In this document: positions 18,157-23,357 of the stretch, piece by piece
Position numbering within the stretch: the first letter of the stretch is position 1
How the letters are laid out: each line of letters opens with the position of its first letter
Position numbers and translations under genes: made by a program
Notes under the pieces: model-generated
What the model was told of the DNA's origin: nothing
What the model saw: only the letters and a program-made list of their open reading frames with translations
Databases searched by the model: none
NCBI RefSeq assembly: GCF_004006665.1
Contig: NZ_QOCL01000001.1
Span: 186,001-250,000, forward strand
Direction: 5' to 3'
Source: Halobacteriovorax sp. HLS
Lineage (GTDB): Bacteria > Bdellovibrionota > Bacteriovoracia > Bacteriovoracales > Bacteriovoracaceae
DNA: 64,000 bases

Positions 18157-20070
18157 TTAGATACTTACATTTTTTGAATGCGGAGCTTCTGCTAATGGAA
18201 GCGTTATGACAAAACTAGTATTTACGCAAAGCTTATCTAGGTAAAGATCCCCTTCATGCTTATTTATTATATTTTTAGATATACTTAGACCAAGACCGGT
18301 CCCCTTTCCGACAGCTTTTGTTGTAAAGAATGGGTCCATCATCTTATCACAGATAGTCTTATCTTTGATTTGTCCACTATCGGTTACAATCAGACTTACA
18401 AACCCGATCTCATGCCTTAAATCGACTTTTACCCATTTCTCTTCATTATCACTAATAGCATCGTAAGAGTTATTTAAAAGGTTTATTAGAACTTGAGAAA
18501 TTTGAACCGAATTTGCATTGATATAAGTTCTAGAATCATGGATATTATTCTTAATTATAATACCTGCATTTTTAAATCGACTCTCAGAGAAGTTAATTGT
18601 TTCTCTAATTATATCCTCTAGGCAGATATCTTCAAAGTCGACTCCCTTATCATCCCTAGAAATGAGCTTTAAACTTTTTACTATTTTTGAAATTCTAGCG
18701 ATAGTCTCATCCATCTTTAAAAAAGATGCCTGTTCACTAGTAGCACCTAATCCCCGTTGAATTTTCTTACTCAGCATTTGAATTATGGCGAGAGGATTAT
18801 TAATTTCATGAGCAATTGAACTTGCCATCTCGCCAACAGATGCAAGTCGCGCAGATGTAACAAGTACATCTTGTTGTTCAAGTAATTGCTGTGTTCGACT
18901 CTCTACCCTATCTTCTAAAGTTCTGTTTAGATCAATTATTTTTCTCTCAAAAGATATTTTATTTTTAAGAATAATCGCCAAGAAAATAATTGAGAAAGTT
19001 AAAAATATTAAAGAGGTAATTGTTAACCAGAATAATTGAGGAAAGTTTTTATAAAAATATTTAATACCGAAAGGACTATTTACAATAGTTGCTGAAGATT
19101 CAACATCTTTAGAAGTCATACCGAACTTTTTAAGAACATTAAAATCAAAATAAGTCCTAATAGGACTTTCACTAACAATTTTTAAATCATCTATAGGTGT
19201 TCCAGAAATATATTTTAGAGTCATTTCAGCTGCCATCTTTCCATGATCGTAACCACTTAGAAAAACGCCTCCAATGACACCATGATTGAGAAAAAAATCA
19301 AAGAACGCGTAAACAGGCCGTGAAGAGTGCCTAGAGAAGTTTCTCATATTTTCAGTGAAGTGATAGTATTTACCTTCTGAATCTCTCGAGTAAGCACCAA
19401 AAAGAGCAACACTACTTTCGTCAAAGTCTTTGGAAAGATCATAGACATCTTGCATTTTTAAATTTTCTAAATAAATAAATTCTAAAGGAAAGTTATTTTC
19501 GTTAACAACCTTTTGAAATTCTTTTTTAACAAACCTTCCACTTGCAGAGTGTATGGTGTTAATGAAGTAAACTTTCTTCAAGTTTGCATGGGTCTTTAAA
19601 ATAAGTTCAATATTTTCTTTAAGTGGAAGGCTCTCAACAATTCCTGTTATATTCTTCTGCGTTTTTAAAATAGTTTCTTTGTAATTTAGATAACCATTAA
19701 CTCCGGAAAAGAAAATTGGTGTATCAACGTTGAGTTTCTTTCTTAATGAAATTGCAAAGTGAAAAGCATTATCATCTGAAGTAATAAATGCCTTAACTTT
19801 CTTGCCTTTAAGTTTAACTTTATAGGTTTCAAGTAAACTATCTAGGTACTTATCTCCAATATATCTTTTCGTATCTAAATATTCTGATGATATTTGATGA
19901 GCAAATAATTTACTTAAAAGCGTTGTCCGAACACCATTATCAATTGAATCTGTCCAGATATTACCTCTACTATAAGAATGAAGGACTACAACCATTTCAT
20001 CTTCAGCGATTAAACCTGAAGCAAATGCCGGAGCAGTAAGAAAAAACAAAGATATTAATAGAAGTTTCAT
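18157..20070 (-). CDS. Sensor histidine kinase with periplasmic ABC-type substrate-binding sensor
   Basis: 637 residues from ATG 20070; a TTG at 20079 is possible but neither has a clear ribosome site. In numbering from the TTG, a signal peptide or first helix lies at 1-20. An ABC_sub_bind-like (PF04392-type) periplasmic domain follows at about 28-310, opening VVLHSYSRGNIWTD. Then come a membrane helix (349-371), a coiled coil, a HisKA box with His424 in SSIAHEINNPLAI, and HATPase_c with DSGQI and GKGTGLGLSIS. The G1 box reads DSGQ instead of DxGxG. The ligand is unknown. It is last in an operon with a response regulator and a ChpT/Spo0B-like protein. Confidence 0.88.
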   Translation of the reverse strand: MKLLLISLFFLTAPAFASGLIAEDEMVVVLHSYSRGNIWTDSIDNGVRTTLLSKLFAHQISSEYLDTKRYIGDKYLDSLLETYKVKLKGKKVKAFITSDDNAFHFAISLRKKLNVDTPIFFSGVNGYLNYKETILKTQKNITGIVESLPLKENIELILKTHANLKKVYFINTIHSASGRFVKKEFQKVVNENNFPLEFIYLENLKMQDVYDLSKDFDESSVALFGAYSRDSEGKYYHFTENMRNFSRHSSRPVYAFFDFFLNHGVIGGVFLSGYDHGKMAAEMTLKYISGTPIDDLKIVSESPIRTYFDFNVLKKFGMTSKDVESSATIVNSPFGIKYFYKNFPQLFWLTITSLIFLTFSIIFLAIILKNKISFERKIIDLNRTLEDRVESRTQQLLEQQDVLVTSARLASVGEMASSIAHEINNPLAIIQMLSKKIQRGLGATSEQASFLKMDETIARISKIVKSLKLISRDDKGVDFEDICLEDIIRETINFSESRFKNAGIIIKNNIHDSRTYINANSVQISQVLINLLNNSYDAISDNEEKWVKVDLRHEIGFVSLIVTDSGQIKDKTICDKMMDPFFTTKAVGKGTGLGLSISKNIINKHEGDLYLDKLCVNTSFVITLPLAEAPHSKNVSI

Positions 20071-20151
20071 CGTTAGCAATAATAGAACTACTACATCCTT
20101 AGGAAAAGTAAAAAAATAAAATTTAGATAATCTTAAGAAACAAAAAGAACT

Positions 20152-20841
20152 CTAACTATCGACTCTATCGGATAGTAGGGCCCAACGGCCGCCCCCCTCC
20201 GAACGAATCATATAACCAAATGAATGTAACTTTCTTCGAAGATTATACAGGTGAACATCTACAGTTTTTGGATGAACATTCGTACTTCCCCAAACTTTTT
20301 CTAGAATATCATTTCGAGTAATACTTCTATCATGAGAGTCTAAAAATAGTGAAAGTAACTGCTTTTGTTTTGCCGTTAAGTTCTCGATATCGTTCCCATC
20401 TAGACTAACGCTTTTGTGGCCAGACTCAATACTTCTAGGTCTACTCGCGCCTGATAACACATTTTCAATTTTTACTAATAATTCATTCTTCTTAAAAGGC
20501 TTCGTTAGATAGTCAAGAGCGCCTTCCTTAAAACAGAATCTTAAAGCATCAATATCATCAATAGATGAAACAATAATAAACGGAATATTTAGAATATTAG
20601 AATCTTTCGAATTTGTTAGAAAGTTAAGAAAGTTGCCATCTCCTAGCATTAGATCAGCGACGATCATATCTGGGAATTGAGAAGACTCAGCGCTTTCTAG
20701 TGTAGCGACAAAGTCATCCAATCGTTCAAAGTACTTTGTCTTATATCTATGATCTAAAGTCTGCTCATAAACAAATTGGCAGCCCTTATCATCTTCTAGT
20801 AACCAGAGAGACTTATCTTTCGCATTCATTAAATCAGACAT
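20152..20841 (-). CDS. OmpR-family response regulator
   Basis: 229 residues. The receiver domain (about 11-125) has acidic residues ED at 16-17, phospho-acceptor Asp63 in VADLMLGDG, and lysine in TKPFKKN. The C-terminal winged helix (about 140-225) contains LTAKQKQLLSLFL, ILEKVWGS, the recognition helix HPKTVDVHLYNLRRKL and the wing RSEGGGRWAL. It should bind DNA as a dimer when phosphorylated. Its ATG overlaps the end of the upstream ChpT-like gene by 8 bases, and the sensor kinase follows, so the three form one signalling unit. Targets are unknown. Confidence 0.9.
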   Translation of the reverse strand: MSDLMNAKDKSLWLLEDDKGCQFVYEQTLDHRYKTKYFERLDDFVATLESAESSQFPDMIVADLMLGDGNFLNFLTNSKDSNILNIPFIIVSSIDDIDALRFCFKEGALDYLTKPFKKNELLVKIENVLSGASRPRSIESGHKSVSLDGNDIENLTAKQKQLLSLFLDSHDRSITRNDILEKVWGSTNVHPKTVDVHLYNLRRKLHSFGYMIRSEGGGRWALLSDRVDS

Positions 20842-21520
20842 TGAGAACCTTTATCTTAAGAGAAACCAAAAAGTTCTCTCCTTCGTTTGAACATGAAATA
20901 TCGTACTTACTTGAGTTCAAAATAATTTCATGACCTAAATTCTTTCTAAATACTTTCGCACCAGGTGAAGAAGAATCATCAAGCTTTAAAAAAACAGCTT
21001 CATCCACTGGTAGCACGCTTTCTAGTGTAAACTCAGAATATTTAGAGTCAAGTACTTTTAGCTTTAACTTTACAACTGAGTCAACAAGTTGGCCTTTTTT
21101 AAGCTCTTCAAGATAAATGGCCATAAGCGAAAAGAGAACAGAATGGAGTTCTTCATTTGACGCATCAAGACAGACAGAATCATCGATTTCAGAAGTATCA
21201 AATTTTAATTTCTTAAACTCGTTCCAAAAGTGTACCTGTAGAGAATGGACAACATTTTCAAAAAGCTTCTTAGGACTTATTTGGCCAGTAATCAGAGAAG
21301 ATTTTTTGATATAACTTCGATAAAAAGTAATAAGATCAGTAACTTCATCCAAGCTATCTTGTAGGCGATTAAGATATTTAATCCCTTCAGTATCAATATG
21401 GTTTTCTAGCTCTTCCACACAAAACTGCATAACATGAATTTGTCCGGAAATATCATGAGCTGCGACACTGGAAGATTCCAGCATTGCGTCAACATACTTT
21501 TCAATTTTTACTGTTTCCAT
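20834..21520 (-). CDS. Histidine phosphotransferase-like protein (ChpT/Spo0B-type): DHp helices plus degenerate ATPase fold
   Basis: 228 residues, soluble. Near the N-terminus is AAHDISGQIHVMQFC with His22, very like the HisKA phospho-acceptor helix. A second long helix (about 35-70) follows, as in a DHp hairpin. The C-terminal part keeps a helix like an N-box region (ELHSVLFSLMAIYLEELKKG) but has no N-box Asn, G1 DxGxG or G2 GxG motif. That is the build of ChpT and Spo0B, which shuttle phosphate between receivers without ATP. It is the first gene of the operon, upstream of an OmpR regulator. A ribosome site AGGTGAG precedes the ATG. Functional assignment is inferred from architecture. Confidence 0.68.
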   Translation of the reverse strand: METVKIEKYVDAMLESSSVAAHDISGQIHVMQFCVEELENHIDTEGIKYLNRLQDSLDEVTDLITFYRSYIKKSSLITGQISPKKLFENVVHSLQVHFWNEFKKLKFDTSEIDDSVCLDASNEELHSVLFSLMAIYLEELKKGQLVDSVVKLKLKVLDSKYSEFTLESVLPVDEAVFLKLDDSSSPGAKVFRKNLGHEIILNSSKYDISCSNEGENFLVSLKIKVLNV

Positions 21521-21636
21521 ATTCTCACCTATCTCTTTGTAATTGATATTATAAACTAAAAATCTATAAGCATCTAGTCGAAGTTTATTTGGAACTTAAA
21601 AAGACAATTTATTTGAGCTATGCTACAAAGTTTCTC

Positions 21637-22365
21637 ATGAAAAAGGACAAAGTATTCGCCACAGAACTGGAATCAATTAAGAGTTTTGAGTTTAATCAGG
21701 AAGTCGCAGAGGTATTTGATGACATGGTAAGTCGTTCAGTTCCTTTTTATGACGAGATTCATCGAATAACCCTAGATCTAATCGATCGAAACTATAATGG
21801 CGGTGCCATTTACGACCTAGGATGTTCGACTGGAACAACAATCTCTATTATCGACAAACACTTCAAAGAAAAGAGCAGAAAGTCTCCTGATTATATTGGA
21901 ATTGATAACTCTCAACCAATGCTAGAAAAGTGTGAGCAAAAGCTCTCTCAAAACGGTGTTCAAAACGTTAAGCTTGAGTGCAAGAATATTCAGGATGTTC
22001 AGTTCAGAAAATCTGGACTTGTTATAATGAACTATACTCTCCAGTTCATAAAACCCACACAAAGAGCTGACCTTCTAAAGAAAGTTTACAAGTCTTTAGA
22101 CAAGGGCGGAATGTTTATCCTCTCTGAAAAAATCAAAAGCTCAGGTCACACTATTAATGACCTACTAATTGAGCTTTATTATGACTTCAAAAGAAGAAAC
22201 GGGTATTCTGAGCTAGAGATTTCTCAAAAAAGAGAGGCCTTAGAAAATGTTCTCATTCCACTTACTCCAGAAAAACAAATGGAACAACTTAGAAAGGCCG
22301 GCTTCAAAAAAGTGGAAATGATTTTCAGATGGTATAACTTTGCCTGCTACTTAGGAGTTAAATAG
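21637..22365 (+). CDS. cmoA: Carboxy-S-adenosyl-L-methionine synthase CmoA
   Basis: 242 residues from ATG 21637, matching the usual CmoA length. An upstream TTG at 21589 would add 16 residues and is less likely. The N-terminal FNQEVAEVFDDMVSRSVPFYDEI is characteristic of CmoA, followed by the SAM-binding motif YDLGCSTGTT and the acidic loop IGIDNSQPML. The enzyme makes carboxy-SAM from SAM and prephenate; CmoB uses it to form 5-oxyacetyluridine at tRNA position 34. The stop overlaps the start of cmoB by one base (TAGTG), so the pair is coupled. Confidence 0.94.
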   Translation: MKKDKVFATELESIKSFEFNQEVAEVFDDMVSRSVPFYDEIHRITLDLIDRNYNGGAIYDLGCSTGTTISIIDKHFKEKSRKSPDYIGIDNSQPMLEKCEQKLSQNGVQNVKLECKNIQDVQFRKSGLVIMNYTLQFIKPTQRADLLKKVYKSLDKGGMFILSEKIKSSGHTINDLLIELYYDFKRRNGYSELEISQKREALENVLIPLTPEKQMEQLRKAGFKKVEMIFRWYNFACYLGVK

Positions 22366-23357
22366 TGCCATTAGACTATCTTCTGCCATACAAAGACAAA
22401 GTCGATCTCGATTTTCTATCGCAATTAAAAAGTGATTGCGACACTTGGATAGATAGAAAATCCAATAGTGATTTAAAGGCGCTACTTAAAAGCCTTCCAG
22501 AAGTGGAAGGACACGCAACAGACCTAGGAGTAGATGCGGTAGTCATAGGTAACCCCTCAGAAATTACCCCGCAATTAAAGGATCAATATATTCAAGCCGC
22601 CAAGGCCTTAATTCCATGGAGAAAAGGACCATTTAATTTCTATGGTGAATATATAGACGCTGAATGGAGAAGTGACTTTAAGTGGAATCGTTTAAAAGAC
22701 CACGTAGACGATCTAGAGGGAAAAACTGTTTTAGATATTGGCTGTAATAATGGTTACTTCCTATTTAGAATGGCCCATCAAAATCCGGAATTACTTCTAG
22801 GGATTGACCCAGTAATCCAGTGTGAGACACAGTTTAAATTTTTACAACACTTTGCAAAGGTACCAAATCTTCATTTTGAGATGTTTGGAGTTGAACATAT
22901 AAACTCATTTAAAGAAATGTTTGATGTCATTTTCTCAATGGGTATTATCTATCATCACAGACATCCTCTAGAGCAACTCATTAATATTAGGAATGCTCTT
23001 AAGCCAGGTGGTCAAGCAATTATTGAAACGATAGGAATCCCTGGAGATGAAAGTTATGCTTTATTTCCAGAAGATAGATACGCAAAAATGCGAAATGTCT
23101 TCTTTGTTCCAACATTAAGCTGCTTCATTAATTGGCTTAAAAAAGCAAAGTTCATAGATGTTGAAGTTGTGGCCGCAACTCCACTTACATTTGAAGAACA
23201 AAGATTAACAGACTGGTGTCCACCTCCAAGTCAATCGCTTGAAGATTTTCTTGATCCTAATGACCTCACTAAAACTATTGAAGGACATCCAGCACCAATG
23301 AGATTCTGTTTAAAAGCAAGGAAGAAGCCGGCACAAAATGCTAACCAGAACAACTAA
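22365..23357 (+). CDS. cmoB: tRNA U34 carboxymethyltransferase CmoB
   Basis: 330 residues, the standard CmoB length, starting at GTG 22365 with GGAG about 8 bases upstream. The N-terminal helical region contains FNFYGEYIDAEWRSDFKWNR, a CmoB signature. The Rossmann methyltransferase core has VLDIGCNNGYFLFRM and LGIDP, and the C-terminus keeps RYAKMRNVFFVP and DWCPPPSQ. It transfers the carboxymethyl group from carboxy-SAM to 5-hydroxyuridine-34, widening wobble decoding. It overlaps the next gene by 20 bases. Confidence 0.95.
   Translation: MPLDYLLPYKDKVDLDFLSQLKSDCDTWIDRKSNSDLKALLKSLPEVEGHATDLGVDAVVIGNPSEITPQLKDQYIQAAKALIPWRKGPFNFYGEYIDAEWRSDFKWNRLKDHVDDLEGKTVLDIGCNNGYFLFRMAHQNPELLLGIDPVIQCETQFKFLQHFAKVPNLHFEMFGVEHINSFKEMFDVIFSMGIIYHHRHPLEQLINIRNALKPGGQAIIETIGIPGDESYALFPEDRYAKMRNVFFVPTLSCFINWLKKAKFIDVEVVAATPLTFEEQRLTDWCPPPSQSLEDFLDPNDLTKTIEGHPAPMRFCLKARKKPAQNANQNN

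Follow-up and report, generated by a model that had tools for sequence, protein, structure and literature searches.

Three consecutive genes on the reverse strand of the window (the whole analysed stretch of 64,000 nucleotides from Halobacteriovorax sp. HLS) raise a question about the flow of phosphate: does the first of them, called here HPT_X, encode a phosphotransferase, and if so which protein provides its phosphate and which one receives it? The preliminary description had proposed a relay contained within the three genes, formed by a ChpT/Spo0B-like protein, an OmpR-type regulator and a kinase with a PF04392-like sensor. The three open reading frames agree with that description in position, strand and 8-base overlap, and the sensor is recognized by Pfam (ABC_sub_bind, PF04392, 7.6e-9). 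The features of the locus are:

20834..21520, minus strand: HPT_X, 228 aa, putative soluble kinase-derived phosphotransfer protein
20152..20841, minus strand: RR, 229 aa, OmpR/PhoB-type response regulator, phospho-acceptor Asp63, acidic pocket Asp17
20834..20841, minus strand: overlap of HPT_X and RR, 8 bases
18157..20070, minus strand: membrane histidine kinase; periplasmic PF04392 sensor, HisKA with its His in AHEINNP, intact HATPase_c, no receiver
21521..21588, no strand assigned: divergent promoter region between cmoA and HPT_X, holding the CTAGATGC box
21589..23357, plus strand: cmoA and cmoB, tRNA wobble uridine modification, divergent neighbours used as synteny marker and outside the mechanism

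The Pfam domains of RR are Response_reg and Trans_reg_C; those of the kinase, besides its sensor, are HisKA and HATPase_c. Some 80 bp lie between RR and this kinase, which displays a hydrophobic N-terminal start and one further transmembrane segment; its open reading frame covers 18157-20079 when read from a TTG start, an ATG being present 9 bases downstream at 20070. The overlap between HPT_X and RR also amounts to 8 bases in three congeneric species (G001, G003 and G004) and to 4 bases in the genus of G015 and G059, and it likely couples the translation of both genes.

HPT_X and its kinase relatives

A search of 129 genomes of the same family and 369 of the phylum gave a set of stand-alone HPT_X proteins, 213-259 aa long, from 24 genomes. 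In this protein the DHp hairpin extends over about residues 10-72, followed by a degenerate ATP-binding (CA) domain at about 79-228. His22 is invariant (24/24) and is in all 24 cases followed by an acidic residue, Asp or Glu (Asp23 in the window protein); the surrounding stretch, 17-39, is the most conserved part of a fast-changing protein. Compared with active HisKA kinases, HPT_X has the H box with its acidic His+1 and lacks the N box and G1: none of the 24 proteins has the N-box Asn and the G1 Asp, while the 18 full-length relatives presented below all have both, together with the G1 Gly. In the window protein the alignment places Ile135 at the position of the N-box Asn, and G1 is lost. The same partition is seen for the proline at His+5, absent from the 24 stand-alone proteins and present in the 18 full-length kinases. 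The histidine box and the loss of N and G1 reported in the preliminary description are therefore borne out, and no intact ATP site was found; on the other hand G2, also reported as lost, has left a trace (LG195-196 in the window protein) in most HPT_X. Two further residues never vary among the 24 stand-alone proteins, the histidine at His+7 (His29) and Cys34; the full-length kinases do not share this invariance.

These full-length kinases (536-597 aa) were retrieved with the HPT_X profile from several families of the phylum, and from three genomes of the same family. The 18 of them, all from Bdellovibrionota, have several membrane segments, and nearly all adjoin a homologue of RR. The profile of the 24 stand-alone proteins aligns with that of the 18 full-length ones (hhalign) at 99.7% and E 5e-26 over 225 columns, that is the whole of DHp and CA. 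In the tree, HPT_X and its full-length relatives form one clade against the other kinase of the window (100/100), and the stand-alone proteins are monophyletic within this kinase clade (89/91, with long branches and a rough bootstrap). The tree of the regulators runs parallel: those of the stand-alone loci form one clade (98/92), including G055 and G010 which later lost HPT_X, and the RR of the full-length pair of G040 sits just outside it. Because of this alignment, the motif losses and the trees, we take HPT_X to be a shortened kinase whose ATP site is dead, best read as the former cognate kinase of RR. In this reading the membrane sensor and the ATP site disappeared, and the hairpin for dimerisation and phosphotransfer was retained.

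An AlphaFold model of HPT_X, calculated with two sequences as input, has a mean pLDDT of 51, i.e. a low confidence, and its DHp half is not usable. Its residues 79-228 nevertheless align to the CA domains of kinases with a Z of about 12, so that the C-terminal half, presented earlier as merely a helical remnant, appears in this low-confidence model to fit the kinase CA fold more than such a remnant. ChpT and Spo0B are not among the listed structural matches of the model, which is no argument against either.

Known sequence families did not capture HPT_X. The window protein has no significant family match in Pfam. The ChpT family (HPTransfase) matched neither the window protein at E up to 1 nor 13 members of the set at E up to 0.1, and the Spo0B family (SPOB_a) matched one of the 13 at a sub-threshold E of 0.055. 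The canonical Hpt domain (PF01627) was not detected in HPT_X, which is absent from the 11 places of the genome where Hpt is found. Searching PDB sequences with HPT_X or with its profile returned nothing meaningful, and no relative was found in viral contigs. Two Pfam matches, PIN_12 and Endonuc-dimeris, are below the cut-off and attributed to chance; a viral fusion protein in PDB (1e-4) is read as a helical chance match, which vanishes with the profile. From these comparisons HPT_X is outside the ChpT and Hpt sequence families, and appears as a variant of the ChpT/Spo0B/PhyT kind that arose independently.

The conserved gene pair and the position after it

In the 24 genomes of the family HPT_X is followed on the same strand by an orthologue of RR (44-82% identical), and cmoA and cmoB are the divergent neighbours in nearly all loci. 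The gene after RR is acnA, encoding aconitase, in 14 of the 24. By contrast the kinase of the window occupies this place in two loci only, those of the window species (G000) and of G002 (58% identity); in G015 that place is taken by a different kinase, and the 21 other loci have no directly adjacent kinase of such kind. Conservation of the trio, which the preliminary description suggested to look for in Bdellovibrionota, is thus ruled out, and the conserved unit is the pair HPT_X-RR, mostly accompanied by acnA. In one genome, G030 (L026:5958-6640), RR is split into two overlapping frames, the receiver and the DNA-binding part, beside an intact HPT_X; either the sequencing is at fault here or the two parts are really separate.

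Within the genus, G001, G003 and G004 carry acnA after RR, and the two species with the window kinase are the only ones without acnA in the whole genome; both have acnB elsewhere (89% identical between the two). As acnA is absent there and the kinase stands at its place, the window kinase occupies the acnA slot in a lineage-specific manner. At this slot acnA and the window kinase are mutually exclusive in the genus (L016, L017, L018 and L019). The two kinase-bearing species are not sisters in the RR tree, which suggests a reversal or a horizontal exchange.

The CTAGATGC box of 21521-21588 is conserved across the genus and resembles a box preceding acnA in sister species, where the motif TTGTYTAGVTG is found upstream of both HPT_X and acnA (L017:4703-4858). 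Since genome-wide counts of this motif show no excess over a reversed-pattern control, it can be called no more than a suggestive operator candidate. We found no literature on such relays in Halobacteriovorax or Bdellovibrio.

Regulator phosphosite and proposed direction of phosphate transfer

Asp63 is kept in all 23 scored RRs encoded beside a stand-alone HPT_X (the split RR of G030 was left out), and also in those encoded beside a full-length kinase. The RR-acnA locus is present without HPT_X in G055 and G010 and in G056 and G011, which represent two genera (g7 and g8) on two branches. In these four genomes Asp63 is changed to Glu and Asp17 to Ser or Asn, damaging the acidic pocket, and HPT_X was found neither elsewhere in the genome nor as a remnant. 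G040 (L108 and L120) also encodes, besides its full-length kinase-RR pair, a second RR paralogue (G040b) with Asn63 and no partner gene. The tree shows three losses of Asp63, each in an RR devoid of a partner and none in a partnered one; three independent events are too few for a sign test to reach 0.05. G026, G122 and G123 are exceptions, for they keep Asp63 with no adjacent HPT_X; in G025 the end of an intact kinase lies directly upstream of RR, which counts as partnered. In G026, G122 and G123 the HPT_X slot, from cmoA to RR-acnA, is occupied by an aldehyde dehydrogenase gene (L117, L118 and L119). The change from Asp to Glu is widely used as a phosphomimetic in response regulators, with an effect that is not universal. 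As it accompanies the loss of HPT_X, it suggests that the phosphorylated RR is the active form and that HPT_X is its phosphodonor.

Histidine phosphotransferases receive phosphate from the Asp of a receiver. The window kinase has no receiver, therefore a classic relay inside the three genes is impossible, and the donor of HPT_X is probably another receiver. We consider it reasonably probable that HPT_X is a soluble histidine phosphotransferase passing phosphate from other receivers through His22 to Asp63 of RR, and that RR in turn works as an activator. A receiver domain elsewhere in the cell, belonging to a hybrid kinase or a single-domain regulator, would phosphorylate His22; HPT_X, presumably as a dimer, would hand the phosphate to Asp63; and phosphorylated RR would activate transcription, its targets being probably its own operon and, in the loci where it comes next, acnA. 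The window kinase would be a later addition in two species and may phosphorylate RR directly, as a second input. Candidate donors are available: in the genome receivers are matched 89 times and HATPase 64 times, about ten of the latter matches being in one frame with a receiver (hybrid kinases), and there are many short single-receiver frames. Canonical Hpt domains are encoded as well, so that HPT_X is not the sole possible phosphotransferase.

Other readings of the same genes have to be weighed. The ATP domain of the window kinase might phosphorylate His22 directly, in trans or in a mixed dimer, HPT_X then serving RR: the adjacency of this kinase in the window species and G002, and the independent arrival of another kinase at the same place in G015, speak for such a circuit. 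We hold it nevertheless for improbable, given the kinase without receiver, the DHp domains of HPT_X and of the kinase lying in distant clades, and the loci, 21 in 24, that do without a directly adjacent kinase. Still less credit can be given to a non-catalytic control, in which HPT_X would bind RR as a scaffold or anti-regulator and His22 would be structural. The retention of a decayed CA domain, which points to other constraints on the protein, and the constant pairing with RR agree with it; at the opposite, a structural role hardly accounts for the invariance of His22 and of the acidic His+1 in a fast-changing protein, nor for an RR phosphorylation site kept wherever HPT_X is present.

The phosphatase or damper envisaged in the preliminary description has somewhat better grounds, and we regard it as unlikely. 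Here the kinase would phosphorylate RR directly, and HPT_X would remove the phosphate by reverse transfer or as a phosphatase, or sequester it. A direct kinase is indeed next door in two species, and the window kinase has Asn at His+4, the position at which Thr or Asn serves HisKA phosphatases. But HPT_X has Gly or Ala there in 24/24, never Thr or Asn, most of its loci have no kinase beside them, and its loss together with the change of Asp63 to Glu in g7 and g8 fits a lost donor better than a lost sink. Such an action has been proposed as one role of PhyT, kinase-derived and encoded beside its regulator, which both transfers phosphate to PhyR and sequesters it (PMC5898713).

Transfer from a distant receiver through HPT_X to RR, which we prefer, could be one stage of a decay series: a cognate kinase would have become a soluble phosphotransferase open to other kinases, whose loss, with the phosphomimetic change of Asp63 to Glu, would have left a constitutive control of aconitase. 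To this succession we give slightly under an even chance. If true, living relatives would let one trace how a private two-component pair turned into a shared relay and then into none. A single phylum contains all three states: kinases related to the ancestral one and, both at one syntenic locus, the decayed form and the situation after its loss; the order of the losses (the sensor, the ATP site, then the phosphotransferase and the phosphosite of the regulator) and the rewiring of the donor are thus directly testable. RR is besides the probable regulator of a TCA-cycle enzyme, aconitase, in predatory bacteria, here the marine predators of the Halobacteriovorax group.

Comparison with known phosphotransferases

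Close terms of comparison are the full-length kinase-RR pairs of Bdellovibrionota (L091 in G364, L108 in G040, L025 in G022), homologous in DHp, CA and RR. They keep the membrane segments, the N box, G1 and G2, whereas HPT_X keeps only the trace of G2. More widely, a descent from kinases is assumed for ChpT, Spo0B and PhyT alike. The likeness to ChpT and Spo0B seen in the preliminary description holds in that HPT_X appears to be a kinase-derived phospho-histidine protein devoid of ATP-site motifs, and its sequence supports the kinase plan of the ChpT/Spo0B/PhyT class, a DHp hairpin and an ATP-fold domain.

PhyT of Sphingomonas melonis (PhyT/PhyP) has its gene next to that of PhyR and receives phosphate from distant kinases via a single-domain receiver, its kinase origin being only suspected in its paper (PMC5898713). 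It shares with HPT_X a derivation from kinases, a degenerate ATP domain, a conserved phospho-histidine and a gene next to the output regulator, and with the scheme proposed here the location of the donor kinases elsewhere. PhyT has a membrane anchor, a periplasmic domain and an HRxxN box; HPT_X is soluble, with an HDxxG/A box, and serves an OmpR-type regulator, unlike PhyT.

ChpT is not known to be encoded beside ctrA. Like HPT_X, ChpT of Caulobacter, which serves the regulator CtrA, is soluble and consists of a DHp hairpin and an ATP-fold domain without use of ATP (PMC3433190). The two differ in origin: relatives of the ancestral kinase of HPT_X are found here, and HPT_X has no match to the ChpT family of Pfam within the E limits given above. 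Spo0B of Bacillus has a His-Asp box. It follows the kinase plan, as HPT_X does, and HPT_X would also share its dimeric state and its task of carrying phosphate from a receiver to an output regulator; the gene neighbourhood and the regulator are different. Beside these systems HPT_X is real and well conserved, and would stand as a new, independently derived variant among kinase-derived phosphotransferases.
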